Shown: positions 2,771 through 63,286 of the stretch, piece after piece | How positions within the stretch are numbered: position 1 is the first letter of the stretch | Layout: the number at the start of each line of letters is the position of its first letter | Source: Sipunculus nudus | Lineage: Eukaryota > Annelida > Sipuncula > Golfingiida > Sipunculidae | Length of the DNA stretch: 64,000 nucleotides | Direction of reading: 5' to 3' | NCBI GenBank assembly: GCA_026874595.1 | Contig: CM049307.1 | Location: 55,201,870-55,265,869, forward strand | Translations under genes and position numbers: made by a program | The notes under the pieces: model-generated | Databases searched by the model: none | Told to the model about the DNA's origin: nothing | The model's input: only the letters and a program-made list of their open reading frames with translations

Positions 2771-2979
2771 ATTTCAACCTGAAATATTCCTGAAATTTAG
2801 CCTAACGTGCTTTTTTGTAAACCATTCCTTCTGTTAAAAAAGATTCATTTCGAAGGTTTTCCAATCCAGTGGTTCTATTTTATTCAAATTTATTCGGCTA
2901 TATTCCTGTCTGATGATTCCTGGCTGAATTTTCCAGTGTTGACAGAATGAAAAAAAGTGACAATAAAAGCATGATTTTT

Positions 2980-4070
2980 TTTTCAGGTTTTGTTCATCTG
3001 TTAGTCTCATCCTTGGTCAATTTCGATCAAAGATCACTCCGCTAAAGGTTTTCGATGTTAAATGTTATGTTGAATATGAAACGCACCTATTTGCTTACCT
3101 TCACCACTAGTTGTCCACGTGTTTTCATTTTGGTATGCAGATTGAATAGGTGCCCTATATTACAACGACGATGTCGTTTTACTATACGACAGGATATTAA
3201 ATCGACGAAAAAATAACTATTAATCTTAGAATTAACCGTTAGACAACTCCTTGGAAACGTCATTTTTCCATATGTTAAATATCATGGCAAAACTGTCTTT
3301 AGTAACATTATGTTCATCTCGTATGATGAACCGTTCCCCTGCCCTTCATAGCGTACCACCTAATATATAAGAGAGATGACGTTATGGGAAGTTTCTATGT
3401 CGCAACATTGATGGTTTGAACGGGTACAGCTTTTTTTTAACGAAAACGCGCAATTTAAGCACGCAAACAGATTTTAGACGATGTATTTGCTCCACCCTTA
3501 AGTTATTCATAATCGCCATTTCCTTATGTAGGGAGCATGCACTTTTTTTCTTTTGCAGATGTATTTTGAACTGCGCCTAACTGCAAAGAAGGGAAGTATG
3601 AAGACCACAGAATACCTTTTTGCAGCAAAGGAGGTGTTTTGTCGTCCTGATCGCGGAGTGCTCCGTATCGGCAGTAACCCTGGAAATCTAATTTTATGTC
3701 GCTGTCTCCTGGCTACATGGGAAAACGTCGCCGATGTGGTAGAGGAATATCCAGTCTACGCCACAGTGAATGACGTCATTGAGTAACGTCAGTATAGAAC
3801 AAAAGATAACATCTGCTTATTAAACTCCTTTTCCGGCGACCAGTCTAAAACGGATTCCTCCAGCACTTTCAGTTTAACATGCAGTTAGTAGTTAAACGAA
3901 ATCCCGAGGAGGTGGTGCCCTTTTTTATTTAGCTTTACATACCCCTCAGTCTGATGGGAGCGGATATCAAACGTATCCTGGAAGAAACTGGCGATATACT
4001 AAAAGCAAACGAATTTATTTCTTCATAATTGAAACATTTTGTCAGGAATTTGCAGCACAAACACTAATAT
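2980..4070 (+). pseudogene. NAT16-like acetyltransferase pseudogene, copy A
   Basis: This is a remnant of the three-exon NAT16-like gene seen intact at 36410-38711. No exon 1 is visible. The exon-2 acceptor region (near 2983) runs straight into sequence that lies just past the exon-2 donor in the intact copy (near 3030-3060), so almost all of exon 2 is deleted. Exon 3 starts after a good polypyrimidine-AG at 3558 (frame from 3559) and stays open to a premature stop at 3784-3786. The rest of exon 3, including the 'GADIK.ILEETGDIL' region near 3960-4010, survives but is out of frame. Upstream, head to head, lies the TRIM pseudogene. Confidence 0.8.
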
Positions 4071-5940: not shown

Positions 5941-6240
5941 AGTGCTTCATTCCATGACAATAAGGGCACGAATGCATACCTTTCTGTGCTAATTGTTTGA
6001 GCACGGAGGCAATTCCTCCTATACTAAAAAGTTAAGTGTATGAATGCACACCTGCCTGTACTTACTGTTAGGTTATGAATGAACACTTCCTGTACTAACT
6101 GTTAGGGCACGAAGTAAACTATCCTGTACTATATGTTCAGGCATGAATGCACACCTCTTTAATAATTGTTAGGGTTCCTGTATTAACCAATGGTGACTGA
6201 ATGCATACTTGCCTGTATTAATTGTTGGCGCAGGAATACA
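5940..6240 (+). repeat. Degenerate ~40-bp tandem repeat
   Basis: About seven degenerate units of 38-42 bp, built around 'atgaatgcacacctgcctgt' and 'ctaactgttagggcacgaa'. Each pairs an 'atgcacac' motif with a 'tgttagg' motif. Related units occur at 43905-44110. The array sits directly before the 70-bp minisatellite. Confidence 0.65.
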
Positions 6241-7520
6241 CCCATTCTTAACACCCAATGGAAACAGTAATGACAATTAAGACAATGTGGCAATGTTTGG
6301 TTTAACACGGAAATACACCAGCAATACCTATTCTGAGCAGTAATGACGAATAAGACATAGTGGCAATGCTGAATTCACACATAATTTGAACACCAGCTCC
6401 CATATTTAGCATTAATGATACATCAGACATTGGGGCAATGTCAAATTATTACACAGCAACAGATCATCACATCCATTATGGACAATAATAAGAGCTAGAC
6501 GTTGTAGCAATGTATAATTTTTCACAGCAACAGATCTTTACATCCATTCTGAAAAATGACAAATAAGACACTGTGGCAATGTCTAATATTACACAGCAAC
6601 AGGTCAACATATCCATTCTGAACAGTGATGGCAGCTAAACATTATATAAATGTCGGTTTTTAAAACACAATAGAACACCAACACCCATTCTTACTAGTAA
6701 TGAGAAATCAGACATTGAAGCAATTTCTAAAATTTCAAAACAACAAATCATCACATCCAATCTGAATAGAGACAGCAAGACATTGTGTCAATGCTTGGTT
6801 TAACACAGCAACATATCAACACATCCATGTGCAGTGTCTAATATTACACAGCAACAGATCAACACATCCTTCACATCCATTTTGCCCGGTTTTACACAGA
6901 AATAAACCAGCAACTTTATTCTAAGCAGTAATGACAAATAAGACAAAGTGGCAATGTCTGATGTTACACAGAAATAGAACACCAACACATAATTTTAGCA
7001 GTAATAGCGAATCAGACACTGTGGTAATGCGAAACATATAACAGCAACAGATCATCACATCCATTCTGAACAATAATGAGAGCTAGACATTTTAGCAGTG
7101 CCTAATATTTCACAGGAACAGATCATCACATCCATTCTGAACAGTAATGGCAGCTAGACATTGAAGCAATGTCCTGTTTTACACAGCAACAGATCATCAC
7201 ATCCATTCTGAACAGTAATAACAGCTAGACATTATGTAAATGTCTGTTTTTACACAACAACAGATCATCACATCCATTATGAACAGTAATGACAGCTAGA
7301 CATTGCGGCAGTATTCGGTTTCACACAGCCAGAAATCATCACATCAATTCTGAACAGTGACAGCTAGACATTGTGGCAATGCTTGATTTTTCACAGCAAC
7401 AGATAAACACATCCATTCTGAACAGTAATGATGGTTAGACGTTGTTGAAATATCTATTTTTGCACAAGAATATATCACCAGGTCCGTTCTGAACATAAAA
7501 AAAACATGCCTTAGAGAACA
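6240..7520 (+). repeat. 70-bp minisatellite, copy 1
   Basis: A tandem array with a period of about 67-71 bp and roughly 18 degenerate units. Each unit contains 'cacagcaacagatcatcaca', then 'tccattctgaacagtaatga', then 'agctagacattgtggcaatg'. Open frames in the array (for example 6800-6988 and 7344-7535) are products of the repeat and have no coding support. The same array, with the same boundaries, is present in copy 2. Confidence 0.85.
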
Positions 7521-9950
7521 AGACTGTGGCCACATACATACCTTTATGTCTCCAAGAAAACTTCAATTTGAATCAATACAGCTGCTCACAACTGCAAGTA
7601 GAGACCTCATCTTGTTATCAGAACGTTTTTGCAAAAGATATAGAATAATATTTTTTTCTGGAGACAATGATAAAATAAACTAAAAAATAAAAAGCAAAGA
7701 AGTAATATTAAATAACAAGAAACAATGTATCATTACTGTTATTGGATTAATATTCATTCCACATCGAAAAATGTATTGCAACGGTGCAGAATCATACACA
7801 AAAATGATTGGCGCACACTGGTCAATACCCTATCAAGACTTCAGACACAATATACCTCGTCATTATTTGGTAGCTAAACACTGTCCTTTAGTCCAGAGAA
7901 AGGGTATCTGGATTATGTTACATAACAGAAGTATATGGATAATTAATCGGGGATTCAAATAAGATGGACGCCAGGGAGACAACATTATTAAATAATACAT
8001 AAACAGAGAACATGATAATACAAAGCAAATTTCCAAAGATAAAGAGAGACCATGTTATAGGAAGGCATAAATTGATAACAGAAAACACCATAATATAGCA
8101 TGTCAAAAGTCAAAAACATAAATGATATTAATGGGAAATTGTCACGTAAAAAGCAGTATCTCTGTGGACTCTGCAGATGGCAAAAACTTCCTAAGGAGAG
8201 CATTAAACGCATAAACAGATTGCATGAATGAATCCGTTCTCAGAATACGGACATCACGGGGAAACAATATGGACTTCTCGCCTACTCAGGTTAAGTTTGA
8301 AGTGTTGAAATATTTCCTTGTATCAAAATTTATCTCTGGTACAGAGACCACACAGCCAGGAAATGTTTATTTATGTCACTCAACGCAATTGTCCACATCT
8401 GAATCGTTTTATAACATTAAAATGTACTAAATGTTTGCTTGGGTCAATAGAAGGAAGAAATTAAGAAATAATGTTTCCTCCTACACCTTCAAACGAAATG
8501 CGTTCTTCCTAAGGTGGAAGCTGTCACTTTTAATCCAGCCTTCCTTGAAATATATACAATTTGTTAAACTTGACCGTTGATACCTTGATTATAAATCCTT
8601 CTTAACTTCCCAGGACAGGAATCCTATTCCAAATCAGACTCTTTATTGGATATTGATAAGCTTCATTTCTATATTTTGATTTTCTAATGCCAAATCCATT
8701 GCAGGAAAAAAATACTTTTCTCTAGTATTCGAACAACTCTGCCCATGAAGAACTAGTGGAAAACCAATAATTTCGACGTGCGACCTCCAATGCCGGTTGT
8801 TAGTGGGTAAAATGGCAGCTCCAATGAGATCCCATTTTGTTATACCTTGATATATAAAGCTGTCAGGGGTTGATAAAGATGTGAGAATGAGACAGAAAAG
8901 TAATCAGAAGTCAGCTAGTAGTTTTCCCACGAGAATGTTTGAACACAACAGCGGACAATGTGATATACAATATACATAATCACGCTGTTCTATGGATGTC
9001 AATTATGAAAACAAAATAAAAATTTAGAAATATTCATAACAGTTTTAAAAAGACATGTTTTGGTAAAGGAATCTTAATAAAGATGTGGTTTTCAGTAGCC
9101 TTTCAGGATGTGATATTAGCAATATAATTAATTGCTAGATTATCGAGTATGTATATTGCATTTAGTATTGTGTGATACCAATAGAATTTCCCTTCAATAT
9201 TTTATATTAGGGAATATATTGTATAAAAGGAATATATAAAATATTCAACAAGACAGATACTGGGACGGACTATAGGTATTTTTGTATTGTACAATATACC
9301 TTATTAAGTTGAAATGAGTCCCTCAGTAATTAGTTTCAACAATTCAGGACGATTGTGTTTCATTTTATATTTTCAGAAAAATTATAAAAAAAAGAAAAAA
9401 AATTACATGGAAAATGTTTTATTTCCTGAATCCCAGTCACATAGAATGTTACACACATATATGTATATCCTCTATACATCCGTGTCTTCAAATTTATATT
9501 TCTTGTAGCACAAAGTGAAACAAAATAATTCACAGTTGATTATTTCAGAACAAATAAACCAACCAGCGAAACACCAGAAGTGCTTTTCATCCATTAGCGA
9601 GCTATCTCTTGCTTAAAGGGTTGTGAGCTATTAACGATACATATAGTTTTCAATACATCAATATCTTACCCAGCCTTACTTATTGTGGCAAAAGTAAGCT
9701 TCCTATTTCAGATTTAGACATTTTAACTTGATTAGAATCAAGGAAATACTAAAAGGTAAGCCGCTAATGTATATATAAACACTTCTCAGAGCGTTAAAGT
9801 CAACATTCTCAATTAGACTCGACTTAAAATAATCAGTATATCCTTTCATGGTGACGTATATCTAACATAATAATGAATAAATAAATAAATAAATTTATAA
9901 ATCTATGCATATATAAAGTAAATTTATTTATTGTAATTACCCCCCTCCCC
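7520..9950. other. AT-rich noncoding spacer of the module
   Basis: No gene, RNA or clear repeat array seen. Two stretches recur in the older module further right, which shows that the spacer was part of the duplicated unit: 8640-8960 matches about 32930-33210, and 9550-9640 matches about 34770-34850. The short open frames here (7771-7962, 8224-8430, 9314-9508) lack homology or codon support. Confidence 0.5.
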
Positions 9951-9954
9951 CTAG

Positions 9955-10170
9955 CCTAGCGATCGGGGTTATGTTTTGGGCAGCAAATTTTTGTTTGTAT
10001 ATATGTGTATTAGTTTGTTTGAAGCACAATTACACTAAAAGTCCTCAACGGAGTTTGATGAAATTTTCAGGCTAGCTGAGCGATTATACTAGGAACAATT
10101 AATTAAATTTGGGGGGGGGGGCGATCCATGCGTAAATAACCCCGGAAGCAGCTCCAGTGTTTTATTAGGG
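9955..10170 (+). repeat. Dispersed 'ggttatgttttg' repeat, copy 1
   Basis: An interspersed repeat with the order 'cggggttatgttttgggcag', a pyrimidine-rich part with repeated 'tttgt', then 'gtcctcaacggagtttgatg', a 'gctagctgagcgat' segment and a G-run. Relatives on the plus strand are at 10497-10620 and on the minus strand at 62040-62600, 62850-62960 and 63130-63240. No coding capacity or terminal repeats are seen, so the class is unknown. Confidence 0.6.
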
Positions 10171-10496
10171 GACTATGTCATTATTGTTGACACTGGAACG
10201 TAACAGTAGACGATATGGCCATATTTATAGTGATTCATAGAGGAAAATAACGTCACTCCATTCGTACGTGTCGTTTCCTTGTAGGGTGTCAGTAAATCAA
10301 CGAACAGCATTGGGGCCATGTCGTACCGATCGTTTTTTTCCGGATACGCATTTCGCATGCCGGATTCGCGCACGAGGAAACTCACCTCCTTCATTTCTCA
10401 ATACGTGTACCTATTTTATACGCTTCCGCATCCGCGTTCCGTACATAGAAACCTAAGCTTACGTCTGTAAATATATTCGACCTTACCTCTTTATTA

Positions 10497-10620
10497 CCTC
10501 CGCCAAGCGGCAGAGGTTATGTTTTTGTGGGTGTTGGTGTAAAATAAGTCCAAAAGTGATTGACGGATCTTCCCTAATTCTTCAGGATGGCTCGGCAATG
10601 ATGAAAGGAAAAAAATAAAT
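10497..10620 (+). repeat. Dispersed repeat, second shortened copy
   Basis: It begins 'cctccgccaagcggcagagg' and continues with 'ttatgtttttgtgg' and 'ggatggctcggcaatgatga'. These are the same landmarks as in the repeat at 9955-10170, with a shorter middle. Confidence 0.55.
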
Positions 10621-10639
10621 TTTGATACGTAAACAAATA

Positions 10640-11229
10640 GTTGAACCAAGAATATTTTAATGGAACAATGCTACTACTCTAGCAGTTCCATAGTAGGGTA
10701 ATGAGCTAACTTGGAAGGGGTCTGCGCTGTCTGAGTGATTATGTTGTCGGCACAATAAGACAAGATATTGCATTAAGAAACATACGGGAGATACCAAGCC
10801 CGTCAAGTCAATCGACATGGTTGGAAAAAAAAACCTTTTTTTCATTCACATTATTGACTAGCAACCATCTGCTAGTTTATAAATTTATATATTAGCTTAT
10901 TAGCATTATGGGGCTCAAGTCATTATCCTTCAATAACAGCTGCAGTTGGAACGTCCACTTTTCGACGTGGCAGTCCTTGTGCCTCTTTTTCGAAATTGAT
11001 TGGTTTATAGGGTCGCTCGGAGTCAGGTATTCACGTATTTGAACATTCCTCATGTAAAATCAGAACCAGATTTTACACAGATGTCACACAGTACCCTTTT
11101 CATCACATAAGAACGACCTCTGGTGACCACGATTGACACTCCCGAGGTCACATGTCCGTGCATGTTGTTTCAAATCTTGTATTTATTGCTTAATAGACCT
11201 GAACACAGAAGACCAACGTTACGGCCACC
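10640..11229. repeat. TRIM 3' flank closing tandem copy 1
   Basis: Noncoding. Homologous to 190-790 and 35240-35830 (landmarks 'caagtcaatcgacatgg' and 'gacgtggcagtccttg') and nearly identical to 20868-21457. It ends at the duplication junction at 11224-11231, where 'cggccacc' runs into 'tgatcacatgaaagg'. Confidence 0.6.
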
Positions 11230-11230
11230 T

Positions 11231-13002
11231 GATCACATGAAAGGCCAACGGAAAAATCTGATAATCTAATCTCACAGACATATTTCTCCTGGTCATTCCA
11301 TATTATCACCTCCGAAGGAGTTGAATAAGAAAATATATACATTTCTACTTCTTTAGTTTTGCCTGAACATTCATGATACCCGTATCTGCAGCTAAACATT
11401 TTGAACCACGCCAAATTTTCATTTTTGTTATATTTCCGTAAAGAATCATTTTCCTTGACCGGATGATAATAATGTTCCCCTTTGTTTCGAATGAAGGAAA
11501 ACAATTTCATGAGGAAGTTATTTTATATAAGTTCAGAAAGTGTAGGTCTTTGCCATCTGCAAACATCTCAAAAAACATTCCTTCCTCTCTACCCGCACAT
11601 AACACCCTCCCACTATTTGCTGAAACACGGTTGATAGTGCGCTATGCTACATACATAGATAAAATCCATTTTCTTACAATCGCACAACACTAGTCCTTTT
11701 TCCTCCTCCAGACACTAAGACAGCAGTTCCATCTGGTAGAGCGCCTATGCAAAATCGAGCTACTATCCTGTCGCCATGGTTACCTTTGATTATAGCAGGT
11801 TTTTCTTTCGAATTAACGTTTGGTCTTTTACATAATATATTCTAGTTTTGTCTCATTTTCATCCTTCGACTCCGTGTCTGTTATCTTCCCGATGTCTGAA
11901 AATAATTGTGCAAAGGACAATTTTTTGTTGCTCTGTGATTTTGATCCACATTTTGTTGGTTTATTCGTGCATTCCTCACTTTAATGGAATTTTTTTACCG
12001 AAAGAAATATTTAATCCTTTATGGAATTTAATATGATCAGGTTAAAACATCAAAGGTCTTCCCCACTTTTTTTAGAAATTGCCCTTTCATCTCCAGTTCC
12101 CGGCAAGAGAGAACAAGTTCACAGTCACTCTTTTGCTAGCTCTTAATTGGTATGCTTTCCGTTGCACTTTCAGATATTTTTCTTGCACGATAATCCCTTG
12201 CTGTGAAACATTCAAGTACTTTTCGATTAGATCTTTTAGTGTCCCTTCTTTCTGGTCATCTAAATTCTTTCTGATAGAGAGCGCCGATTCATCAATTTCT
12301 CTTCTCACTTCTGTGAAATGTTCGACAAGACTTCTATACTGAAAAAAAATGATCTTTGTCTCTTCTATCCTTCTTTTAATGCTCTCTTCCATTGGCTGAA
12401 ATATGGCCCTGATCTGCCTCGCCATTTAAAAACTTCTTTTACAGCGTCAGGATGTGAGCCATGCGTACCATTTAACAAGCAATCTGTGCACCAGAGTACA
12501 TTGCATGCATTGCAGAAGTGTACATATTTACACCCATGGTCTTTACAGAAACCTACGCACTTTTATTTGACCCCTATAGCTTTAAGGGTACCATGGGATG
12601 ACTCTGAAATCCAGGTTACTTGTTATGCTCATTACACAGTTCTCACAAAAGCCTCCGGTAACCAGATTGATTGTTGCAAGGATAAAGTCTCCTCTTACCA
12701 GCTGGTTTTGCACAACTCAACCGTCCGCTGCGAACGGATTATCCCATTTGTTTGCTCTAAAATTGCTCTAAATTTAATGGCAGATCTAAAACATCCCCAT
12801 TGTGTAGAGTCGTAAGCTGGCGACAATTTGGACAGGGAATATAGTTTCCTACACGATACCGTTTAGACATGGTGTGCAGAATGTATGCAAGCACTGCAAT
12901 GTGCGAGGCGAACGACTTAGCAGGGGGATTCAAGCAAACCTGACACGTCAAAACTTGCTCTGCTTCACTCAGTGATATGTCTTCTTGATCCGAGGTGGCC
13001 AT
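11231..13002 (-). pseudogene. TRIM-type RING/B-box/propeller pseudogene, copy B
   Basis: Tandem twin of the pseudogene at 905-2770, with the same start peptide, the same RING-destroying frameshift and the same propeller deletion. It lacks the last part of the gene because the duplication junction cuts it near 11231. One A fewer in a homopolymer near 12345 joins two coiled-coil fragments into a single 112-codon frame (12087-12425), so the twins differ in frame there. Part of the coiled coil is readable, but a functional protein is not expected. Confidence 0.85.
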
Positions 13003-13211
13003 ATTTCAACCTGAAATATTCCTGAAATTTAGCCTAACGTGCTTTTTTGTAAACCATTCCTTCTGTTAAAAAAGATTCATTTCGAAGGTTTTCCAATCCA
13101 GTGGTTCTATTTTATTCAAATTTATTCGGCTATATTCCTGTCTGATGATTCCTGGCTGAATTTTCCAGTGTTGACAGAATGAAAAAAAGTGACAATAAAA
13201 GCATGATTTTT

Positions 13212-14301
13212 TTTCAGGTTTTGTTCATCTGTTAGTCTCATCCTTGGTCAATTTCGATCAAAGATCACTCCGCTAAAGGTTTTCGATGTTAAATGTTATG
13301 TTGAATATGAAACGCACCTATTTGCTTACCTTCACCACTAGTTGTCCACGTGTTTTCATTTTGGTATGCAGATTGAATAGGTGCCCTATATTACAACGAC
13401 GATGTCGTTTTACTATACGACAGGATATTAAATCGACGAAAAAATAACTATTAATCTTAGAATTAACCGTTAGACAACTCCTTGGAAACGTCATTTTTCC
13501 ATATGTTAAATATCATGGCAAAACTGTCTTTAGTAACATTATGTTCATCTCGTATGATGAACCGTTCCCCTGCCCTTCATAGCGTACCACCTAATATATA
13601 AGAGAGATGACGTTATGGGAAGTTTCTATGTCGCAACATTGATGGTTTGAACGGGTACAGCTTTTTTTTAACGAAAACGCGCAATTTAAGCACGCAAACA
13701 GATTTTAGACGATGTATTTGCTCCACCCTTAAGTTATTCATAATCGCCATTTCCTTATGTAGGGAGCATGCACTTTTTTTCTTTTGCAGATGTATTTTGA
13801 ACTGCGCCTAACTGCAAAGAAGGGAAGTATGAAGACCACAGAATACCTTTTTGCAGCAAAGGAGGTGTTTTGTCGTCCTGATCGCGGAGTGCTCCGTATC
13901 GGCAGTAACCCTGGAAATCTAATTTTATGTCGCTGTCTCCTGGCTACATGGGAAAACGTCGCCGATGTGGTAGAGGAATATCCAGTCTACGCCACAGTGA
14001 ATGACGTCATTGAGTAACGTCAGTATAGAACAAAAGATAACATCTGCTTATTAAACTCCTTTTCCGGCGACCAGTCTAAAACGGATTCCTCCAGCACTTT
14101 CAGTTTAACATGCAGTTAGTAGTTAAACGAAATCCCGAGGAGGTGGTGCCCTTTTTTATTTAGCTTTACATACCCCTCAGTCTGATGGGAGCGGATATCA
14201 AACGTATCCTGGAAGAAACTGGCGATATACTAAAAGCAAACGAATTTATTTCTTCATAATTGAAACATTTTGTCAGGAATTTGCAGCACAAACACTAATA
14301 T
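13212..14301 (+). pseudogene. NAT16-like acetyltransferase pseudogene, copy B
   Basis: Tandem twin of the remnant at 2980-4070. Exon 2 is nearly all deleted. Exon 3 opens after an AG acceptor at 13789 and reads to the same premature stop at 14015-14017, and the downstream exon-3 remainder is out of frame. No exon 1 is visible between it and the TRIM pseudogene. I see no substitution in its exon 3 relative to copy A. Confidence 0.8.
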
Positions 14302-16167
14302 ATGAACCATCGAAACCATTTTTACTTTGCTGCTCCATCCATCAGTGTATACAAAGGGGTTTACATGATTATTTGCATCTCATTTCATTCCTGCAACCCT
14401 TACAGCTATCAAAAGAGTGGGCGAATTCGCAGCATACTGGGATAAAAAATACTTATGTATCAAATTGTATATCGATAGTGAGTGGTTTCTGCTGTTGCTA
14501 GACTCATTTGTTAAAACTAAGAAAACCCACACACAGGCCCTCTTTTGTTGGAAAGATACTTAACACGTTCTCTCTAGAATACAATGCCTATAATTACTGG
14601 TCTGAGGCCTAAACACAGCTTGTATACTTAATGTGTGTAATCAATTTCTGTTTCATGTACCTTTCCAGTTCATGATTGGATTTATACATTTTATTTTATA
14701 TCGGCACTTCTTTAACAAATGAATATTTGGATGCATATATTATCTTTAAAACACTTTAAATCAAGTCTTTAGGTAATAACTTGGATCATAAAATGATTAA
14801 TTGTTTTTAATTTTAACCAAAAAAAAATATTTTAACCAAAAAAAAATGAAATACTTTTGAGTTTTATTAGGCAGAAGAAATAATGTTCATCGAGTCCGGT
14901 TATAAAGGTTAGACTAGGTTATGTATCTTTTTTACTAAACACGTCTTAAGTACAAAAGTGCCATTACTGTTGAATATTCAAGGTATATTTGATTTTATAT
15001 TATATAACCATGTTTGTGTTTAAATGTATACCAATTTAATGATACGTGTTTTAAACGCTGTTATGAATTCTGTGATTATAATAAAACTTTATTATAACAA
15101 AAGCTTTACGGGTTATATGGCATGAACACATTGTAGAGTATTAAGGGTTCATAATAAAGTTTCTGAATTTGGTCTTTGTAAATGTTTCATGAGCAATTTA
15201 TTTTCTTTGTATTCAGATTTTTACTAATCCTGATTTCATAATATGTATAGAATAGCCTTCAATGTTAATTCAAATAATGGAATTCAGGTATAACTTATAA
15301 GAGTTGCAGGACAATATATAATCTTTTCTTTGTAGATAACTCGATTGGTTTATTATGTTGCAGCTTTTTTTTTGTCTAATTGCACCATCACTGGCCTGTC
15401 CTTATTTTATCCTCTGTGATACTTAAGGTACACTTGATTGATTAACGTTTTTTGTGTTTTTTTTTTTTTGTTGGAGGACGCACTGTATGTTGGGTGTCAG
15501 TTCGGAACGGGGGACCTAGCCCTCTGAATGGCTTTGAAAGCCCCTTTGCTATTTCTTGTAAAGCTCTCTCGTTATGTTAAAAGTCATTCATTTACTCCTA
15601 GTAGATGCCTTGTGATATTTTGCTTCTATAATTTTAATTTCCTTAAAAATATATTTAAGGCAATGTCTTGGTTATGCGCAAGAATTCTGGACTTTCGGTG
15701 CGACAAATTACATGTGCAGTCATTATTCTAAATCTCAACAGAGGAAAATTAAATTGTAACAGTTGTAAAAAAATGGCAAAGGAATTTCAAATTTCACATA
15801 ATGACAACTTTTGATTGGTACTTTGTGGAAATCTAAAATAAAATCACTGTGACGTATGGGACGAAAGGATAATTTTGAGCACCTGAGAAGTTAAGACTCC
15901 AGCCAACGTAAAAATCATACAAAAACACGTGAGTGGGCCATATTAACAAGGAACTGCTAATATCCGATCTGCTAATCGGGTTATAATAATGTTAACAACT
16001 GGAGAAGACCCAAATCTTACAATTACATTATTGCTTTCTCGATTATAGTTTATTCATATGTAATGTATAGAACGCTAATGCTGTCTACCGTTGATATAGG
16101 CGGTTACGGGGAAATATGGATATCAGTTTTTGCTTAATACAAATCCAAAAAAGGAAGACTAAAAGGG
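14301..16167. other. Noncoding downstream flank of NAT copy B
   Basis: No gene seen. This is the tandem counterpart of 4070-5940. It shows a deletion of several bases near 15092 and a few single-base changes relative to it. Confidence 0.6.
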
Positions 16168-16467
16168 AGTGCTTCATTCCATGACAATAAGGGCACGAAT
16201 GCATACCTTTCTGTGCTAATTGTTTGAGCACGGAGGCAATTCCTCCTATACTAAAAAGTTAAGTGTATGAATGCACACCTGCCTGTACTTACTGTTAGGT
16301 TATGAATGAACACTTCCTGTACTAACTGTTAGGGCACGAAGTAAACTATCCTGTACTATATGTTCAGGCATGAATGCACACCTCTTTAATAATTGTTAGG
16401 GTTCCTGTATTAACCAATGGTGACTGAATGCATACTTGCCTGTATTAATTGTTGGCGCAGGAATACA
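16167..16467 (+). repeat. Degenerate ~40-bp tandem repeat, copy 2
   Basis: Counterpart of 5940-6240 in the second tandem block, with the same units in the same order. Confidence 0.65.
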
Positions 16468-17747
16468 CCCATTCTTAACACCCAATGGAAACAGTAATGA
16501 CAATTAAGACAATGTGGCAATGTTTGGTTTAACACGGAAATACACCAGCAATACCTATTCTGAGCAGTAATGACGAATAAGACATAGTGGCAATGCTGAA
16601 TTCACACATAATTTGAACACCAGCTCCCATATTTAGCATTAATGATACATCAGACATTGGGGCAATGTCAAATTATTACACAGCAACAGATCATCACATC
16701 CATTATGGACAATAATAAGAGCTAGACGTTGTAGCAATGTATAATTTTTCACAGCAACAGATCTTTACATCCATTCTGAAAAATGACAAATAAGACACTG
16801 TGGCAATGTCTAATATTACACAGCAACAGGTCAACATATCCATTCTGAACAGTGATGGCAGCTAAACATTATATAAATGTCGGTTTTTAAAACACAATAG
16901 AACACCAACACCCATTCTTACTAGTAATGAGAAATCAGACATTGAAGCAATTTCTAAAATTTCAAAACAACAAATCATCACATCCAATCTGAATAGAGAC
17001 AGCAAGACATTGTGTCAATGCTTGGTTTAACACAGCAACATATCAACACATCCATGTGCAGTGTCTAATATTACACAGCAACAGATCAACACATCCTTCA
17101 CATCCATTTTGCCCGGTTTTACACAGAAATAAACCAGCAACTTTATTCTAAGCAGTAATGACAAATAAGACAAAGTGGCAATGTCTGATGTTACACAGAA
17201 ATAGAACACCAACACATAATTTTAGCAGTAATAGCGAATCAGACACTGTGGTAATGCGAAACATATAACAGCAACAGATCATCACATCCATTCTGAACAA
17301 TAATGAGAGCTAGACATTTTAGCAGTGCCTAATATTTCACAGGAACAGATCATCACATCCATTCTGAACAGTAATGGCAGCTAGACATTGAAGCAATGTC
17401 CTGTTTTACACAGCAACAGATCATCACATCCATTCTGAACAGTAATAACAGCTAGACATTATGTAAATGTCTGTTTTTACACAACAACAGATCATCACAT
17501 CCATTATGAACAGTAATGACAGCTAGACATTGCGGCAGTATTCGGTTTCACACAGCCAGAAATCATCACATCAATTCTGAACAGTGACAGCTAGACATTG
17601 TGGCAATGCTTGATTTTTCACAGCAACAGATAAACACATCCATTCTGAACAGTAATGATGGTTAGACGTTGTTGAAATATCTATTTTTGCACAAGAATAT
17701 ATCACCAGGTCCGTTCTGAACATAAAAAAAACATGCCTTAGAGAACA
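16467..17747 (+). repeat. 70-bp minisatellite, copy 2
   Basis: Counterpart of 6240-7520. The offset stays at 10227 across the whole array, so no unit has been gained or lost since the duplication. Confidence 0.85.
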
Positions 17748-20180
17748 AGACTGTGGCCACATACATACCTTTATGTCTCCAAGAAAACTTCAATTTGAAT
17801 CAATACAGCTGCTCACAACTGCAAGTAGAGACCTCATCTTGTTATCAGAACGTTTTTGCAAAAGATATAGAATAATATTTTTTTCTGGAGACAATGATAA
17901 AATAAACTAAAAAATAAAAAGCAAAGAAGTAATATTAAATAACAAGAAACAATGTATCATTACTGTTATTGGATTAATATTCATTCCACATCGAAAAATG
18001 TATTGCAACGGTGCAGAATCATACACAAAAATGATTGGCGCACACTGGTCAATACCCTATCAAGACTTCAGACACAATATACCTCGTCATTATTTGGTAG
18101 CTAAACACTGTCCTTTAGTCCAGAGAAAGGGTATCTGGATTATGTTACATAACAGAAGTATATGGATAATTAATCGGGGATTCAAATAAGATGGACGCCA
18201 GGGAGACAACATTATTAAATAATACATAAACAGAGAACATGATAATACAAAGCAAATTTCCAAAGATAAAGAGAGACCATGTTATAGGAAGGCATAAATT
18301 GATAACAGAAAACACCATAATATAGCATGTCAAAAGTCAAAAACATAAATGATATTAATGGGAAATTGTCACGTAAAAAGCAGTATCTCTGTGGACTCTG
18401 CAGATGGCAAAAACTTCCTAAGGAGAGCATTTAACGCATAAACAGATTGCATGAATGAATCCGTTCTCAGAATACGGACATCACGGGGAAACAATATGGA
18501 CTTCTCGCCTACTCAGGTTAAGTTTGAAGTGTTGAAATATTTCCTTGTATCAAAATTTATCTCTGGTACAGAGACCACACAGCCAGGAAATGTTTATTTA
18601 TGTCACTCAACGCAATTGTCCACATCTGAATCGTTTTATAACATTAAAATGTACTAAATGTTTGCTTGGGTCAATAGAAGGAAGAAATTAAGAAATAATG
18701 TTTCCTCCTACACCTTCAAACGAAATGCGTTCTTCCTAAGGTGGAAGCTGTCACTTTTAATCCAGCCTTCCTTGAAATATATACAATTTGTTAAACTTGA
18801 CCGTTGATACCTTGATTATAAATCCTTCTTAACTTCCCAGGACAGGAATCCTATTCCAAATCAGACTCTTTATTGGATATTGATAAGCTTCATTTCTATA
18901 TTTTGATTTTCTAATGCCAAATCCATTGCAGGAAAAAAATACTTTTCTCTAGTATTCGAACAACTCTGCCCATGAAGAACTAGTGGAAAACCAATAATTT
19001 CGACGTGCGACCTCCAATGCCGGTTGTTAGTGGGTAAAATGGCAGCTCCAATGAGATCCCATTTTGTTATACCTTGATATATAAAGCTGTCAGGGGTTGA
19101 TAAAGATGTGAGAATGAGACAGAAAAGTAATCAGAAGTCAGCTAGTAGTTTTCCCACGAGAATGTTTGAACACAACAGCGGACAATGTGATATACAATAT
19201 ACATAATCACGCTGTTCTATGGATGTCAATTATGAAAACAAAATAAAAATTTAGAAATATTCATAACAGTTTTAAAAAGACATGTTTTGGTAAAGGAATC
19301 TTAATAAAGATGTGGTTTTCAGTAGCCTTTCAGGATGTGATATTAGCAATATAATTAATTGCTAGATTATCGAGTATGTATATTGCATTTAGTATTGTGT
19401 GATACCAATAGAATTTCCCTTCAATATTTTATATTAGGGAATATATTGTATAAAAGGAATATATAAAATATTCAACAAGACAGATACTGGGACGGACTAT
19501 AGGTATTTTTGTATTGTACAATATACCTTATTAAGTTGAAATGAGTCCCTCAGTAATTAGTTTCAACAATTCAGGACGATTGTGTTTCATTTTATATTTT
19601 CAGAAAAATTATAAAAAAAAGAAAAAAAATTACATGGAAAATGTTTTATTTCCTGAATCCCAGTCACATAGAATGTTACACACATATATGTATATCCTCT
19701 ATACATCCGTGTCTTCAAATTTATATTTCTTGTAGCACAAAGTGAAACAAAATAATTCACAGTTGATTATTTCAGAACAAATAAACCAACCAGCGAAACA
19801 CCAGAAGTGCTTTTCATCCATTAGCGAGCTATCTCTTGCTTAAAGGGTTGTGAGCTATTAACGATACATATAGTTTTCAATACATCAATATCTTACCCAG
19901 CCTTACTTATTGTGGCAAAAGTAAGCTTCCTATTTCAGATTTAGACATTTTAACTTGATTAGAATCAAGGAAATACTAAAAGGTAAGCCGCTAATGTATA
20001 TATAAACACTTCTCAGAGCGTTAAAGTCAACATTCTCAATTAGACTCGACTTAAAATAATCAGTATATCCTTTCATGGTGACGTATATCTAACATAATAA
20101 TGAATAAATAAATAAATAAATTTATAAATCTATGCATATATAAAGTAAATTTATTTATTGTAATTACCCCCCTCCCCCTA
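17747..20180. other. AT-rich noncoding spacer, copy 2
   Basis: Counterpart of 7520-9950. No gene, RNA or array seen. Confidence 0.5.
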
Positions 20181-20181
20181 G

Positions 20182-20398
20182 CCTAGCGATCGGGGTTATG
20201 TTTTGGGCAGCAAATTTTTGTTTGTATATATGTGTATTAGTTTGTTTGAAGCACAATTACACTAAAAGTCCTCAACGGAGTTTGATGAAATTTTCAGGCT
20301 AGCTGAGCGATTATACTAGGAACAATTAATTAAATTTGGGGGGGGGGGGCGATCCATGCGTAAATAACCCCGGAAGCAGCTCCAGTGTTTTATTAGGG
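20182..20398 (+). repeat. Dispersed 'ggttatgttttg' repeat, copy in block 2
   Basis: Counterpart of the interspersed repeat at 9955-10170, with a slightly different G-run length. A second shortened copy follows at about 20725-20848, matching 10497-10620. Confidence 0.55.
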
Positions 20399-20867
20399 GA
20401 CTATGTCATTATTGTTGACACTGGAACGTAACAGTAGACGATATGGCCATATTTATAGTGATTCATAGAGGAAAATAACGTCACTCCATTCGTACGTGTC
20501 GTTTCCTTGTAGGGTGTCAGTAAATCAACGAACAGCATTGGGGCCATGTCGTACCGATCGTTTTTTTCCGGATACGCATTTCGCATGCCGGATTCGCGCA
20601 CGAGGAAACTCACCTCCTTCATTTCTCAATACGTGTACCTATTTTATACGCTTCCGCATCCGCGTTCCGTACATAGAAACCTAAGCTTAAGTCTGTAAAT
20701 ATATTCGACTTTACCTCTTTATTACCTCCGCCAAGCGGCAGAGGTTATGTTTTTGTGGGTGTTGGTGTAAAATAAGTCCAAAAGTGATTGACGGATCTTC
20801 CCTAATTCTTCAGGATGGCTCGGCAATGATGAAAGGAAAAAAATAAATTTTGATACGTAAACAAATA

Positions 20868-21574
20868 GTTGAACCAAGAATATTTTAATGGAACAATGCT
20901 ACTACTCTAGCAGTTCCATAGTAGGGTAATGAGCTAACTTGGAAGGGGTCTGCGCTGTCTGAGTGATTATGTTGTCGGCACAATAAGACAAGATATTGCA
21001 TTAAGAAACATACGGGAGATACCAAGCCCGTCAAGTCAATCGACATGGTTGGAAAAAAAAACCTTTTTTTCATTCACATTATTGACTAGCAACCATCTGC
21101 TAGTTTATAAATTTATATATTAGCTTATTAGCATTATGGGGCTCAAGTCATTATCCTTCAATAACAGCTGCAGTTGGAACGTCCACTTTTCGACGTGGCA
21201 GTCCTTGTGCCTCTTTTTCGAAATTGATTGGTTTATAGGGTCGCTCGGAGTCAGGTATTCACGTATTTGAACATTCCTCATGTAAAATCAGAACCAGATT
21301 TTACACAGATGTCACACAGTACCCTTTTCATCACATAAGAACGACCTCTGGTGACCACGATTGACACTCCCGAGGTCACATGTCCGTGCATGTTGTTTCA
21401 AATCTTGTATTTATTGCTTAATAGACCTGAACACAGAAGACCAACGTTACGGCCACCCTTCAAATGCGTTGACAAATATATTGAAAACGGTATTATTGCA
21501 TATCTTATGCATTCCTAGTGCAAATGACAATGTCAGTGAAGCAGAGAACCATGTGAAAATAGCAGTTTGATAGA
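20868..21574. other. Noncoding 3' flank of TRIM gene C
   Basis: Holds the end of tandem copy 2 (to 21457) and the 3' flank of the TRIM gene. The open frame at 21361-21570 lies in the likely 3' untranslated region and is not supported as coding. Confidence 0.5.
21410..21415 (-). promoter_or_regulatory. Candidate AATAAA poly(A) signal for TRIM gene C
   Basis: A canonical AATAAA hexamer reads on the minus strand about 160 bases past the TRIM stop codon at 21575-21577. Position and orientation fit a polyadenylation signal. In an AT-rich region the hexamer also occurs by chance, so this is tentative. Confidence 0.35.
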
Positions 21575-23586
21575 CTACTGTAATTGATATACTACAAGTC
21601 TGTTTTGGGGCTGGTGAGACCCATACCCAGCTTCAAACTCGCTGATCCATAGAAGACCTGATTGATCACATAAAAGCCCAACGGGAAATCTGATACCATC
21701 GTCTTCGGTCAGCAAATGTCTTAGGAAACACCCATCAAAAGAATATTCTGACACGGTATGATTGCCTTTGTCTGCCACCAAGATGGTACCGAAAGGGGTT
21801 ATTGCTGTACTCATTGGAAATGGCTTTAAGTTACCGTACTGGAGTCTAAGCTCACAGACATATTTCCCCTGGTCATTCCATATTCTCACCTCTGAACGAG
21901 TTGAATCGGAAAATATATACATTTCTCCATCTTTAGTTGTGCCTGTACATACATGTTGCCCGTAGCTGCAGCCTAAACGTTTGAACCACACCAACTTTTC
22001 TTTCTGGTTATATTTTCGTAAAGAATCATTTTCTGTGGCTGGAGTGATAATTATGTTCCCTTTAGTATCTAATGAAGGACAACAATGTCGTGAGCAGGTT
22101 ATTTGATATTCTTTTACAAAGTGTAGGTCTTTGCCATCTGTAGAAACCTCAAACAACATTCCCTCCTCTCCATCCGCACATAACACCCTCCCACTATTTG
22201 CAGAAACACGGTTGATAGTGCGTGATGCTGCATACGTAGATAACAACCATTTCTTACAATCGTACAGCACTAGTCCTTTACCTCCTCTAGATACTAAGAC
22301 AGCAGTTCCATCTGGCAGAGCGCCAATCCCGTATCCTGCCATGATCCTATCGTCATGGTAACGGTTGATTATAACAGGCTTTTCCTTCAAATGAATGTTT
22401 TGTCTCAAGTCCAATAATCCAGTTTTTTCTCATTTTCGTCCTTGGTATCCGTATCAGTTTCTTTCCCGATGTCTGAAAATAATTGTGCAAAGGACAATTT
22501 TTTGTTGTTTTGTAATTTTGATTCACATTTATCAGGTATATTCGTGCATTCCTTATTTTCAGGAACTATTTTACCGAAAGAGCAATTTAAGTCCTTTTGG
22601 AATTTTATATGAAAAGGCTTCGTTAAAACATCCAGGGTCTTCTCCGCTTCTTGTAGACATTGCCCATTCATCTCCAGTTCCCGGCAAGAGAGAACAAGCT
22701 CACAGTCACTTTTTGTGCTAGCTGTAAATTGGTATGCTTTCTGTTGCACTGTCAGGTATTTTTCTTGCACGATTATCCCTTGCTGAGATACATTCAAGTA
22801 CTTTTCGTACAGATATTTTATTGTCCCTTCTATCTGGTCATCTAAATCCTTTCTGATAACTAGCGCCGCCTCATCAATTTCTGTTCGTACTTTTGTGAAA
22901 TGTTCGACAAGACCTTTCCACTGAACCAAGCTAATTTTCGTATCTTCTATCCTTCTTTTAATAGTGTCTTCTCTTGGTTGAAATTTGGCCCTGATCTGCC
23001 TCGCCATTTGAGAAACTTCTTTTACAGCGTCAGGATGGGAGCCATGCGTACCATTTAACAAGCAATCTGTGCACAGGAGTACATCACATGCATTGCAGAA
23101 GTGGACATATTTACTCCCATGGTCTTTACAGAAATCCGACGCACTTTTATTTGACCCTAGCTTTAGGGGTTCCATGGGGTGATTCTGAAATCCAGGGTAC
23201 TTGTTATGCTCCTTTACACAGTTTTCACAAAGTCTTCGGTCACAAGATCGACATTTGATTCTTGCAAGTATAAAGTCTCCTCTTACCCAACAAGTGTTGC
23301 ACAATTCGACCATCCCCAGCGAACGGATCATCTCGTTTGTTTGCTCTATTGTGAAATTTAATGGCAGCTCTGAAACATCCCCACTGTGTAGAGATGTAAG
23401 TTGGCGACATTTTGGGCAAGGGATGTAGTTTCCTGTCACGATCCCGTCTAGACATGGTGTACAGAATGTATGCAGGCATTGTAACGTGCGAGGCGTACGA
23501 CCGAGCAGGGGATTCAAGCAAACCTGACACGTCAAAACTTGCTCCACTTCACTCAGTGATATTTCTCCTTGATCAGAGGCAGCCAT
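21575..23586 (-). CDS. TRIM-family E3 ubiquitin ligase, RING/B-box/coiled coil/NHL-like propeller (one frame break)
   Basis: Read on the minus strand from ATG at 23586. Residues 20-60 form a complete C3HC4 RING (C20, C23, C37, H39, C42, C45, C57, C60). Residues 96-136 are B-box 1 (C96, C99, C112, C115, C120, C123, H127, H136). Residues 153-184 are B-box 2 (C153, H156, C164, C167, C172, C175, H181, H184). A coiled coil (about 190-310) and a charged linker follow. This frame stops at 22405. A second frame, shifted by -1 and open from about 22430 to the stop at 21575, encodes about 280 residues of NHL-like beta-propeller ending VVYQLQ. Joined, it would be about 670 residues, normal for single-exon invertebrate TRIM2/3/56-like proteins. 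The family transfers ubiquitin through E2 enzymes, often in innate immunity or RNA control; the target here is unknown. The break may be a sequencing error in an A6 run, a real lesion, or a natural end of a propeller-less protein. Confidence 0.8.
22418..22436 (-). other. Frame break between TRIM ligase half and propeller half
   Basis: On the minus strand the linker reads GAG AAA AAA CTG GAT and stops six codons after GAG. The propeller frame is entered if one more base is present, for example a seventh A in the run at plus positions 22423-22428. The same linker in the 995-kb-side pseudogene copies (near 1610) has no longer A-run and is offset in the opposite direction, so the region is frame-labile in all copies. 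Confidence 0.7.
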
Positions 23587-29199: not shown

Positions 29200-30180
29200 C
29201 ATGTCACTTTTTTGCATACTATCGACCTTAAATAAACTCTGCCATGAATTTCTTAAATAGACAGAGCATTCTATCGGTTTTCTCAAAATAATTGGACTGT
29301 CAAACATTCTACCAAATTTAATAGAGAGAAAGCAAACTTTCCCTGTACATACCATGATAATATTATTTTACGTTGGTTTAGGGCTGCCATCCCCACATTT
29401 TCGTTCAGTTATCAATTTTCGAACATAACCCGGCATTATACGCATCAATGGTCGTCATTTAGCAACTGTGACTCAAATATGTTATAATTGCACTTATATC
29501 TTTTAAGCGACACTTATGTGGTATGGTCATTCTTATTTATATCTTATCTAGCTCTCCATATGGTACATCAGTGGTGTGATTATGGTTATGATTAAGGTCA
29601 ATTTTTTTTTCATGGGTATTGCGTTAACACCTTATTTCGAACGGACGGGCCCAAGAAGGCCTAACGCTCACCATTTCTTTTTTCTATATTCATGGCGCTT
29701 TCGGCGACCGTGGGATACAAAATATGTTGTTCTTGGCACCAAGTAGGTGTGAGCTTTTGACATTTTACGGGATTGTCGAATTGCAAGTTTGCAATAAAGA
29801 TTATTTGATTATGAATACAACCACCAACTCTGGTATACGTGTGATATCTGCTCTTTCCTATACAGAATTTGCTTCCATTCTAGGTAGCCTATATGATGTG
29901 TGGATTTCGTCGTACAAAGATCCTTATTCCATAACCTGATACGTTGGTTATTTCCGTCTTCCTGTGCAGGTAAGGTATCAACAGGAGGCAGCATGCATGC
30001 TTACCTTGGTGTTGGTACAGACACTTCATAGAAATAAAAAAAAAACACCAAAATGAATGAAAAATGTCGTTAAATGATGATGCCTATTTAACTAATCTCA
30101 CAAAAAAAGACGTTGTAACTGGCATGGAAACTGTTAGGAGGCATCGAAAAGTTCCTGTTCTTAGAAGTGATAGACCATAT
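29200..30180. other. Noncoding stretch
   Basis: No gene or recognised repeat. The open frame at 29724-29939 has no homology that I recognise. Confidence 0.4.
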
Positions 30181-30237
30181 TGTTACGGGGTGACATAAAA
30201 GCGAACAGAACTGTCTCCCTAGTGAAGCTTGCTTTGT

Positions 30238-30291
30238 TAGCGAAGCGGTTGGTACGCCGGACATGTGCGCCAGCGACATGGGTTCGAACCC
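30238..30291 (+). promoter_or_regulatory. tRNA-like Pol III A and B boxes in left LTR
   Basis: TAGCGAAGCGG (30238-30248) fits the A-box consensus TRGCNNAGYNGG closely, and GGTTCGAACCC (30281-30291) fits the B-box GGTTCGANNCC fully. They lie 43 bases apart, as in a tRNA gene. The block would not fold as a complete tRNA, because acceptor-stem pairing is not evident. Confidence 0.7.
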
Positions 30292-30513
30292 CGAATCGAC
30301 CCAGTGTTTTCCCCTGAACAATTTGTCTTCGTTACAAATGGGGGCTCGTCTGACGTGATGGTAAACTTTGTGGCCCAGGGAATAAGCTCACCGAAGTTTG
30401 ACTCCTGGGATAATTGGTCTTGTTCTGATAGCAGAACGCTCTTAAGAGGGTGTGTGTTACAGGGTGACATAAAAAACCGGACCGAACTGTCTCCCTAGTG
30501 TAGCTTTCTTTGC

Positions 30514-30567
30514 TAGCGAAGCGGTTGGTACGCCGGACATGTGCGCCACCGACATGGGTTCGAATCC
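30514..30567 (+). promoter_or_regulatory. tRNA-like Pol III A and B boxes in right LTR
   Basis: TAGCGAAGCGG (30514-30524) and GGTTCGAATCC (30557-30567) repeat the arrangement of the left LTR with the same 43-base spacing. Both boxes are intact. Confidence 0.7.
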
Positions 30568-30619
30568 CGGATCGACCCAGTGTTTTCCTCTGAATAATTT
30601 GTCTTCGTAACAATATACA

Positions 30620-36665: not shown

Positions 36666-38711
36666 TGAGAGAGAGAGAGAGAGAGAGAGGCCTTTTAGTG
36701 AATAATGAGACTGCCACCGGGCAGATGTTTGACGTGGCTATACATAGATGGCGCCACCGTTCGGAGAAGTTGCTGAAGGAGTAACTAAAAGATACAAACC
36801 AGATTTTTTTTTAATTTTTGGGAAAAAAATATATAAATAAAAATATTATTCATTTATTTAAATCTCTAAACTTATCAAAGGTGTCACACGCGCTTTAAAA
36901 AACGCCTTCTGTTAAAAGGTTTATGTAGAATGTTTTATAAACTTTATTTATTTACATGGATTGTACTACTAGTTAATATAACTAATACGAGGCACTCTCC
37001 ATGGCTCAGATGTTGGCGCTCGGTAGTTGGTAAGGGTGGAGGAAACCGGAGGGCCCGGAGAAAACCACCGACCTTGGTCGGGTCACTACAACCCACTCTC
37101 GTAGCCACACCGAGGATCGAACCCGGGTGGCCAGCGGAGAAGGCCAAGCGTTTTACAGCTCAGCTGTCCAGGCCCTTAATGTTTTGTAGAATGTTTTCAA
37201 GCCCAGTGCCTCTTTTTAATCAATCCGGCTTTTTTTCTGCTATAATGAATGCTACAATCTTGGAAGAATAAAGAATTGACACTAAAACTGTGTAATCCTT
37301 TTTTCAGATTTCGTTCCTGTGTTTCTGGGTGATTGAGAAAGGTACGGTCCTATTTATTTCTAGTGGCAGAACCAAGAGTAAGTTCGAGAAGAAGGGCTAC
37401 GTTAAGATCTTGGGCCAACAACCCCTCATAGACTTAGTAAGGAAACATCCAAACATAAAAACACTTCGCTATTCGTTCCGTACCCCTTACTATGTGAAGC
37501 ACATCGTAAAGAATCCAGGTTGGGGATCCGTGACGGGGCGTTTTGTGAGTATTGATAAGTTTGGAATAAAGTTCAATCAGATGTCAATCCGGTACAGGTT
37601 TTCGATGTAAAATATTATGGACACTGTGTGGTTACCGCCTTGCCTCATGACAAAACATTCGTCCAGTGGATATGAAAAAATCATACAAAATCCTTTCGAA
37701 ACAATCTTTTAATGAGTGTGTCATTCAGTTTGATCATTGACCATGCCATGGACCTGTATCCTTACCTACGCCATAAGTTGTCTACGGGTCTTCATTTTGG
37801 TCTCGTTGTTGAATATGTGCCCTATATTGCAACAACAATGTCGTTTTACTACACAACGTCTCTTTCCCCGTTTGTAAAATATCATGGCAAAATATGAAAC
37901 TGTAAATAATTTAACATTATGCTCATCTAGTATGAGGGTATTGTTCCTCTCCCCATTCTAGTATAACGCCGATATAATCCGACAAATTAAGCAAATGAGA
38001 GGTTACTAGAGGCGTCCATGATTGCTTGATTGGTTGCCGTTTGTTGTGACGAAAAGGTGTTAAATACTACCAAGTATAAATACATTTTTGACGATGCATT
38101 TGCTCCACCCTTAGGTTATTCCTATTACGCCGATTCCGTTTGTATGAATCATGACTTTTTTTCTTCTGCAGATGTATATTGAAATCCACGTAACTGCTAT
38201 GAAGGGAAGGATGGCCACCACACAACACCTTGTTTCTGCAAAGGACGTGTTATCTCGTCCTGATCGCGGAACGCTCCGTATAGGTAGTGACCCTGGAAAT
38301 ATGATTTTATGTCGCTCTCCGATGGTTACACCGATCCTAGCTACATGGGAAAACATCGCCGATGTTGTTGAGGAATATCCGGTTTACGTCACAATGAATG
38401 ACGTCAATGACTGCACCGCTCTGAGTACTTCCGGTCAGTATAGAATAAAAGATGACATCTGTTTATTCATCTCCTTTGCCGGCGACCAGTCTGGGGCATT
38501 CCAGCAGCACTTCCAGCATCACGTGACCTCAGCAGCGAAACGACACCCCGACCAGATGACGTCATTTTTTATTAAGCTTTACATACCATTCAGTCTGATG
38601 GGAGCAGATATCAAAAGTATCCTGGAAGAAACTGGCGATATACTGAAACTAAACGAATATATTTCCGTAGAGGTAAAACTTGCTGTTGGGAATATACAGC
38701 ACAAACTCTAA
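36410..38711 (+). CDS. NAT16-like N-acetyltransferase (histidine N-acetyltransferase family), 3 exons
   Basis: Exons 36410-36583, 37308-37544 and 38172-38711 give 316 residues; both introns are phase 0. Splice sites are ATA|gtaagt...ttttcag|ATT and TTT|gtgagt...ctgcag|ATG. Exon 1 carries the family signature 'IYDGMDYLPDNY' (vertebrate NAT16: IYGGLDYLPSRY), followed by 'YPYVLEKDGDI'. Exon 2 gives the central GNAT strands ('VIEKGTVLFISSGRT') and 'RKHPNIKTLRY', matching the R-x-HP-x-V/I-K segment of NAT16. Exon 3 is the family-specific C-terminal domain. NAT16 makes N-alpha-acetylhistidine from acetyl-CoA in vertebrates; the substrate here is unknown. The usual acetyl-CoA loop R-x2-G-x-A is replaced by E-K-K-G-Y-V. 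An in-frame ATG at 36344 could extend the N-terminus, but 36410 has the 'aaaATGtc' context kept in the other copies. An SINE and a TA/GA tract sit in intron 1. Confidence 0.82.
36601..36690. repeat. (TA)n-(GA)n compound microsatellite in NAT intron 1
   Basis: A TA tract (about 36610-36664) runs into a GA tract (about 36667-36690). It starts 17 bases after the exon-1 donor. A single open frame that reads through exon 1 and this tract is an artefact of ignoring the splice site. Confidence 0.9.
36985..37175 (-). mobile_element. tRNA-derived SINE in NAT intron 1
   Basis: On the minus strand the segment begins with a tRNA-like head containing 'CAGCTGAGCTGT' (A-box-like) and GGGTTCGATCC (B box). 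A body follows with 'TTCTCCGGGCCC' and 'CCGGTTTCCTCC'. It is GC-rich in an AT-rich intron. No flanking target duplication was confirmed. Confidence 0.6.
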
Positions 38712-47863: not shown

Positions 47864-48841
47864 TTTATTTTCATCAATAAACGCCCTAGACAGCCGATAA
47901 GCAGGGGCGGTTTAAGGGGGGGCCCTTTTCGACCTTACCAAAAAAACTAGCAAAAAATCTCAAAGTACTCCGTCACGCTTCCAGTCAAAAAATAAAAGAC
48001 AAAGTGTATATAGAACAGATACAATGTATGTCTTGCTTTATAATGCGTTTTAGCTACACAAGATTGCACGATTACAACCTAAATTTTCAAAAAAAATGTC
48101 TACACCTGGTCCCCCCCCCCCTATCCCTCCCACCTCCCCTCGGTTCTTCGCGGCCTTGCATTGTGAGCCCCCCCCCCTATTCTTAATTCCTGTATCCGCC
48201 CCTGATAAGAGGCACCATCATAAGTCCTGTTTCTCTTTATCTACTATTATTTTAAAGGACTATTTTATTTCTATCCATTTTTTATATGACAGAAGAAAAT
48301 CGTCACACAAACTTCTACCGCAAAGATGGCTACAACATGGATGGTTCGACAAAAAGTTTCATCAAATGCTGTTCCTGCAAAGGAGGTATTATCACGTGGA
48401 ACTATGGCAGAGCTGCGTATAGGTGATGATAAAATATTTCTGTGCAGATTCCTCCATATGCCAGTTTCAACTACATGGGAAAACGTCGCTGATGTGGCTG
48501 AGGACTATCCGGTTTACGTCACAATGAACGAGGTCAATGAGTGCACGGCCTTGAGCACCTCCGCCGTTCATCGAAGCCGACGCGGCCATTACTACTCCTT
48601 CTGCTTTTTAGCGGTCTCACTTGATGCATTCGAGGAGCATTTTCATCTTAACCTGACCTCGACATTTAAAAGCTTCCCCGACCAAGACGACACCGTCATC
48701 ATCAACATGTACATGTCAACCTTTCTGGACTGCGCCAGTGTAGCTCAGATGATGGAAGAAACGGGAGATATATTAGAGGATCATGAAATAGCTTGTGCCG
48801 AATTTGATGTTATTGAAGGCGAGGTGCAGAACAAATCATAA
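44845..48841 (+). CDS. NAT16-like N-acetyltransferase, second intact paralogue, 3 exons
   Basis: Exons 44845-45015, 45877-46089 and 48293-48841 give 310 residues. Both introns are phase 0 and sit where they do in the gene at 36410. Splice sites are ATA|gtaagt...tttcag|ATT and TTT|gtaagt...tgacag|AAG. Exon 1 reads 'IYDGMDYLPDKF' and exon 2 'VIEKGTTIFVSSARTKEQ'. Exon 3 shares 'ATWENVADV'-like, 'YPVYVTMNEVNECTALST' and 'EETGDIL' blocks with the other copy. Exon 1 is roughly two-thirds identical to the other gene, so the pair is old compared with the 10.2-kb duplication. The acetyl-CoA loop is again E-K-K-G-Y, not R-x2-G-x-A. The exon-3 start is chosen from the AG at 48291 and the phase; residues just after it are poorly conserved. 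Intron 2 (2.2 kb) holds a dispersed repeat and microsatellites. Substrate and expression are unknown. Confidence 0.8.
46127..46183. repeat. (TA)n microsatellite in NAT intron 2
   Basis: About 55 bases of TA beginning 38 bases after the exon-2 donor. Confidence 0.95.
46370..46740 (-). repeat. Dispersed repeat, partner of 33240-33640
   Basis: The reverse complement shares the 'ttttcacatttactgacc' and 'ccaaacatgcttaaatcc' blocks with 33240-33640. It lies in intron 2 of the second NAT gene. The open frame at 46610-46936 is incidental. Confidence 0.6.
47149..47195. repeat. (TA)n microsatellite in NAT intron 2
   Basis: About 47 bases of TA. Confidence 0.95.
47783..47862. repeat. Palindromic (AAT)n-(ATT)n microsatellite in NAT intron 2
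   Basis: AAT triplets switch to ATT triplets near 47821, so the tract is a near-perfect inverted repeat able to form one long hairpin. It gives an Asn/Ile homopolymer frame that is not coding. Confidence 0.9.

Positions 48842-63281: not shown

Positions 63282-63286
<5 letters not shown>

Follow-up and report, generated by a model that had tools for sequence, protein, structure and literature searches.

A probable Helenus-type TRIM with tRNA-type promoter boxes in its LTRs in a genomic window of Sipunculus nudus

The closest described relatives of the element reported here are the terminal-repeat retrotransposons in miniature (TRIMs) with tRNA-derived sequence in their LTRs, which were named Helenus by Kojima in 2024 and are found in bivalves and other organisms (PMC10886601). 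In the sections of that paper on which we draw, 51 families are recorded from five orders of pteriomorph bivalves, the lengths of Helenus elements range from 311 to 1263 bp and the target duplications in animals are of 4 bp (PMC10886601). The primers of the bivalve elements include tRNA-Pro, the same tRNA is used by Gypsy-13_CGi, and a Gypsy element is regarded as the likely helper (PMC10886601). The promoter consists of an A box, with TRGCY and YGG in most families, and a B box with GGTTC, and a comparison across fungi, wasps, fish and molluscs reported that Helenus LTRs have conserved sequence around both boxes (PMC10886601). According to the same sections few Helenus elements could encode a tRNA, and their use of RNA polymerase III (Pol III) was inferred without experimental validation (PMC10886601). 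Helenus is also mentioned in a 2026 meeting report (PMC12859917).

Three further kinds of TRIM invite comparison. The plant element Cassandra shares with the element described below the TRIM architecture and LTRs that contain a promoter of Pol III type, but in Cassandra, which belongs to land plants, that promoter is derived from 5S rRNA, whereas the sipunculan window holds tRNA-type A and B boxes (PMC10886601). Ajax, a nemertean TRIM, is likewise characterised by a small-RNA promoter in its LTR, and differs in that the promoter is 5S-derived, the target duplication is of 5 bp and the primer is tRNA-Leu (PMC10886601). The biv-TRIM element of 2019 is also a TRIM, in this case from bivalves, but a typical primer site was not identified there whereas the present element has one of tRNA-Pro type, and the parts of its description used here carry no mention of a tRNA-type promoter in the LTRs (PMC6934838).

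Architecture of the element and its resemblance to Helenus

The DNA analysed, referred to below as the window, is a stretch of 64,000 nucleotides, and all positions are given relative to its first base. The first copy of the element occupies 432 bp at 30181–30612 and, as read from its letters, comprises two LTRs and a 118-bp interior, with the following features.

30177–30180, no strand assigned: left target site duplication ATAT, the same 4 bases standing at both flanks
30181–30336, plus strand: left LTR, 156 bp, TG...CA
30337–30454, plus strand: internal region, 118 bp, opening with AA and then the primer site
30339–30350, plus strand: primer-binding site TGGGGGCTCGTC, 12 bases, 2 bases (AA) inside the left LTR
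30444–30450, plus strand: short purine tract AAGAGGG, 7 bases, stopping 4 bases before the right LTR
30455–30612, plus strand: right LTR, 158 bp, TG...CA
30613–30616, no strand assigned: right target site duplication ATAT

The 12-mer TGGGGGCTCGTC, which we take to be complementary to the 3′ end of animal tRNA-Pro, is present twice in the 64-kb window, with one occurrence per copy of the element. The integrases of LTR elements commonly remove two bases, and the 2-base gap between the left LTR and the primer site fits this habit. The chance of 4 identical flanking bases at fixed ends is about 0.005 when calculated from base composition, a value that would be higher for flanks as AT-rich as these, and the target duplication was seen in the one copy (1 of 1) that has both ends. 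A total length below 1000 bp, a primer site beside the left LTR and a target duplication, all of which are criteria for a TRIM, are thus present together in copy 1. Its two LTRs have diverged by a K2P distance of 0.089 (7 transitions and 6 transversions over 156 sites), which indicates that the insertion is not recent.

A second copy is located at 63553–63283 on the minus strand, about 33 kb from the first and in the opposite orientation, giving two copies in 64 kb.

63438–63553, minus strand: internal region of copy 2, 116 bp, matching copy 1 at 105 of 116 bases
63283–63437, minus strand: single (right) LTR of copy 2, aligned over 155 bp, with a (TA)n tract after it

Compared with copy 1, the LTR of copy 2 agrees with the left LTR at 127 of 155 positions and with the right LTR at 130 of 155, with two further gap positions in the latter comparison. 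Its purine tract, AAGAGGGGG, has 9 bases and ends 2 bases short of the LTR.

A first-pass annotation of this DNA had proposed a miniature LTR retrotransposon with a tRNA-type promoter in its LTRs, and the sequence features examined fit that proposal, to which a dispersed second copy can now be added. The LTRs of 156 and 158 bp with TG...CA ends were recovered as described, with 143 identities and 13 mismatches over 156 aligned bases and one 2-base gap, as were the ATAT flank on each side and the tRNA-Pro-type primer site of 12 bases behind a 2-base gap. The purine-rich tract said to precede the right LTR does exist, but at only 7 bases, and ending 4 bases short of the LTR, it is weaker than its wording implied. 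That annotation knew of no description from molluscs, but one exists in the bivalve families of Helenus in the sections of Kojima's paper cited above (PMC10886601).

The features that the element shares with Helenus are a short LTR pair, A and B boxes within the LTRs, a primer site matching a tRNA 3′ end, a 4-bp duplication and a length within the published range, and no difference of kind was found against the sections of the account used here (PMC10886601). A difference of detail concerns the boxes, which read TAGCG...CGG and GGTTCGA in the present element, so that the last base of TRGCY differs (PMC10886601). We consider it very probable that the element is a Helenus-type TRIM ('TRIMp3' in Kojima's term), which would be transcribed by Pol III, primed by tRNA-Pro and mobilised by a helper. 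The assignment is made on features described for the published families (PMC10886601), and by those features the element would appear to be another clear example of an already published kind. The general picture is unchanged by it. The known range of Helenus would be widened if the host lay outside the pteriomorph bivalves, and the combination of a defined primer site with a Pol III-type promoter would be useful for finding the helper and for testing Pol III transcription by RNA.

Promoter boxes and proposed transcription

The candidate promoter elements and the T runs that follow them are distributed over the two LTRs of copy 1 as follows.

30238–30248, plus strand: A-box-like TAGCGAAGCGG, left LTR
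30281–30291, plus strand: B box GGTTCGAACCC, left LTR, starting 43 bases past the start of the A box
30307–30310, plus strand: TTTT, a possible Pol III stop 3′ of the left B box and the sole sense-strand T run of at least 4 bases in the left LTR
30514–30524, plus strand: A-box-like TAGCGAAGCGG, right LTR
30557–30567, plus strand: B box GGTTCGAATCC, right LTR
30583–30586, plus strand: TTTT, a possible transcript end in the right LTR

In both LTRs the box TAGCGAAGCGG is followed by GGTTCGA with box starts 43 bases apart, and the spacing that had been claimed for each LTR was borne out by pattern search. These are the only two A–B pairs in the window by the patterns used, and none occurred when the full window was shuffled 20 times with its dinucleotides preserved, a control that leans towards the element since one of the two A-box patterns is an 11-base variant picked after the element had been seen. 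The classical 12-base A-box spacing, TRGYNNARNNGG, is not present in the element. The sense strand of the element contains one TTTT per LTR, both 3′ of the B box; as meaningful terminators these were rejected, given that shuffling yields on average 1.33 such runs for LTR plus interior, where the element has one.

The likeness to a tRNA is confined to the two promoter boxes. ARAGORN reported no tRNAs over the window and Rfam no matches over the window at the gathering score, and over a stretch of 500 bases that includes the element Rfam gave neither a tRNA nor a 5S match at E values up to 5; 5S rRNA-derived LTR sequence, the feature of Cassandra, was accordingly not found in either search. Folding of the two tRNA-like stretches gave no cloverleaf, and an equally good fold was reached by 11 of 200 shuffles for one stretch and by 96 of 200 for the other. 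As regards conservation of the boxes, the longest identical run between the two LTRs of copy 1 was equalled in 5944 of 20000 shuffles, and that over all three LTRs in 2050 of 20000, which is not beyond chance. In copy 2 both boxes are altered, the A box opening with TAGTG and the B box reading GGCTCGACTCC (GGCTC), and the TTTT has been lost. The absent tRNA fold, the unconserved boxes and the changes in copy 2 together weaken, without overturning, the case for an active Pol III promoter.

These results bear on the most serious competing explanation, namely that the element is a TRIM of the ordinary, Pol II-transcribed sort whose A and B boxes are relics, left for instance by a SINE inserted into an LTR, and no longer drive transcription. 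Such a relic would account for box conservation that does not exceed chance across the three LTRs, for the undetected tRNA fold and for the changed boxes of copy 2, and it is compatible with a literature in which, in the sections cited, the use of Pol III by Helenus stands without experimental validation (PMC10886601). It accords less well with the retention of both boxes at tRNA-like spacing in each LTR of copy 1, or with the published finding that sequence around the two boxes is conserved among Helenus LTRs from fungi to molluscs (PMC10886601), and we regard it as unlikely. An element of this sort would still be Helenus by the published definition; the explanation concerns how the element works, and on identity it overlaps with the one that we prefer.

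As regards the working of a Pol III-transcribed Helenus element, transcription from tRNA-type promoters usually starts some 10 to 15 bases upstream of the A box. Such a start would place the promoter inside the RNA, and it would be carried by both LTRs. We propose that Pol III, directed by the two internal boxes, would start about a dozen bases 5′ of the A box of the left LTR, and that the transcript would traverse the element and stop in the right LTR, possibly at the TTTT there. The TTTT of the left LTR precedes the interior and would therefore have to be read through for a full RNA to be made. Both ends of such an RNA would share an R region some 80 to 85 bases long. Its copying would be primed by tRNA-Pro at the primer site, and the proteins that make DNA from it and integrate this DNA with a 4-bp target duplication would come from an autonomous LTR element, most likely of Gypsy type.

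The second copy and the remaining alternatives

The second copy is of particular value for two other accounts of the direct repeats. A tandem pair of tRNA-derived SINEs, in which the repeats are simply two SINE copies, would explain the tRNA-like promoter within each repeat, but it leaves the TG...CA ends, the primer site that follows the left repeat after 2 bases and the 4-bp flank duplication without a place, and copy 1 is without an A-rich or simple-repeat tail. The (TA)n tract of copy 2 could be read as such a tail, but the corresponding LTR end of copy 1 has no such tract, and copy 2 joins the same interior to the same LTR. A pair of SINEs is accordingly very improbable. Least probable of all, to the point of being negligible, is a local duplication of 274 to 276 bases that mimics LTRs, which would suit direct repeats lying near each other but not the primer site, the ATAT flanks or the recurrence of interior and right LTR as a unit some 33 kb away on the other strand. 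The occurrence of interior and LTR as a dispersed unit counts against both accounts, and they were rejected on the strength of copy 2 and the LTR features.

The structure of copy 2 may also record something of how Helenus-type elements are copied. Its match to copy 1 opens precisely with base 1 of the primer site, no significant match to a left LTR was seen in the 447 bases remaining in the window beyond it, and no flank duplication was seen around it. A precise start at this position is expected from a minus strand completed up to the primer site, followed by failure of the second strand transfer. Copy 2 could thus be the fossil of a reverse transcription that halted before second strand transfer, its one-LTR DNA having then joined the genome, a reading that we put forward tentatively and hold to be rather doubtful. 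The plain alternative is that a later deletion produced the start at the primer site, and a single copy does not decide between failed strand transfer and deletion. Should such ends recur in the family, DNA alone would show that the present TRIM, with its tRNA-type promoter, replicates through the standard LTR pathway, and also that failed intermediates can be inserted into the genome.

Coding content and surroundings

The element is apparently without genes of its own. Sixteen stop-to-stop frames of at least 20 aa overlap it, the longest of which, at 115 aa, extends beyond the end of the element, and the four longest of the 16 gave no Pfam matches at E values up to 0.1. With frames so short, and no Pfam match among the four longest, its proteins are presumably supplied from elsewhere. 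A search of the window for an autonomous partner found the primer-site 12-mer confined to the two copies of the element, and Pfam retrotransposon domains were absent from 11 window ORFs of at least 120 aa (seven searched at E values up to 0.001 and four at up to 0.01). Exact patterns of the element had no matches in collections of viral, bacterial and archaeal DNA, a result of little weight since the host genome possibly lies outside them.

Several other features of the window deserve mention. A direct tandem duplication of about 10.2 kb (992–11229 and 11228–21457) has halves that are 99.8% identical, and is either recent or an effect of assembly, such as the joining of two haplotypes. At 21575–23586 on the minus strand there is a frame matching the RING and B-box zinc finger entries of Pfam, and the next frame has an NHL-repeat match just below the Pfam cut-off. 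DNA about 84% similar to 21575–23586 is found at 1029–2811 and 11265–13043, that is, in both halves of the tandem duplication. The frames at 38151–38711 and 48326–48841 are alike by eye and gave no Pfam match at E values up to 0.001. Finally, a tandem array at 60752–61450 consists of 2.8 copies of a 253-base unit.
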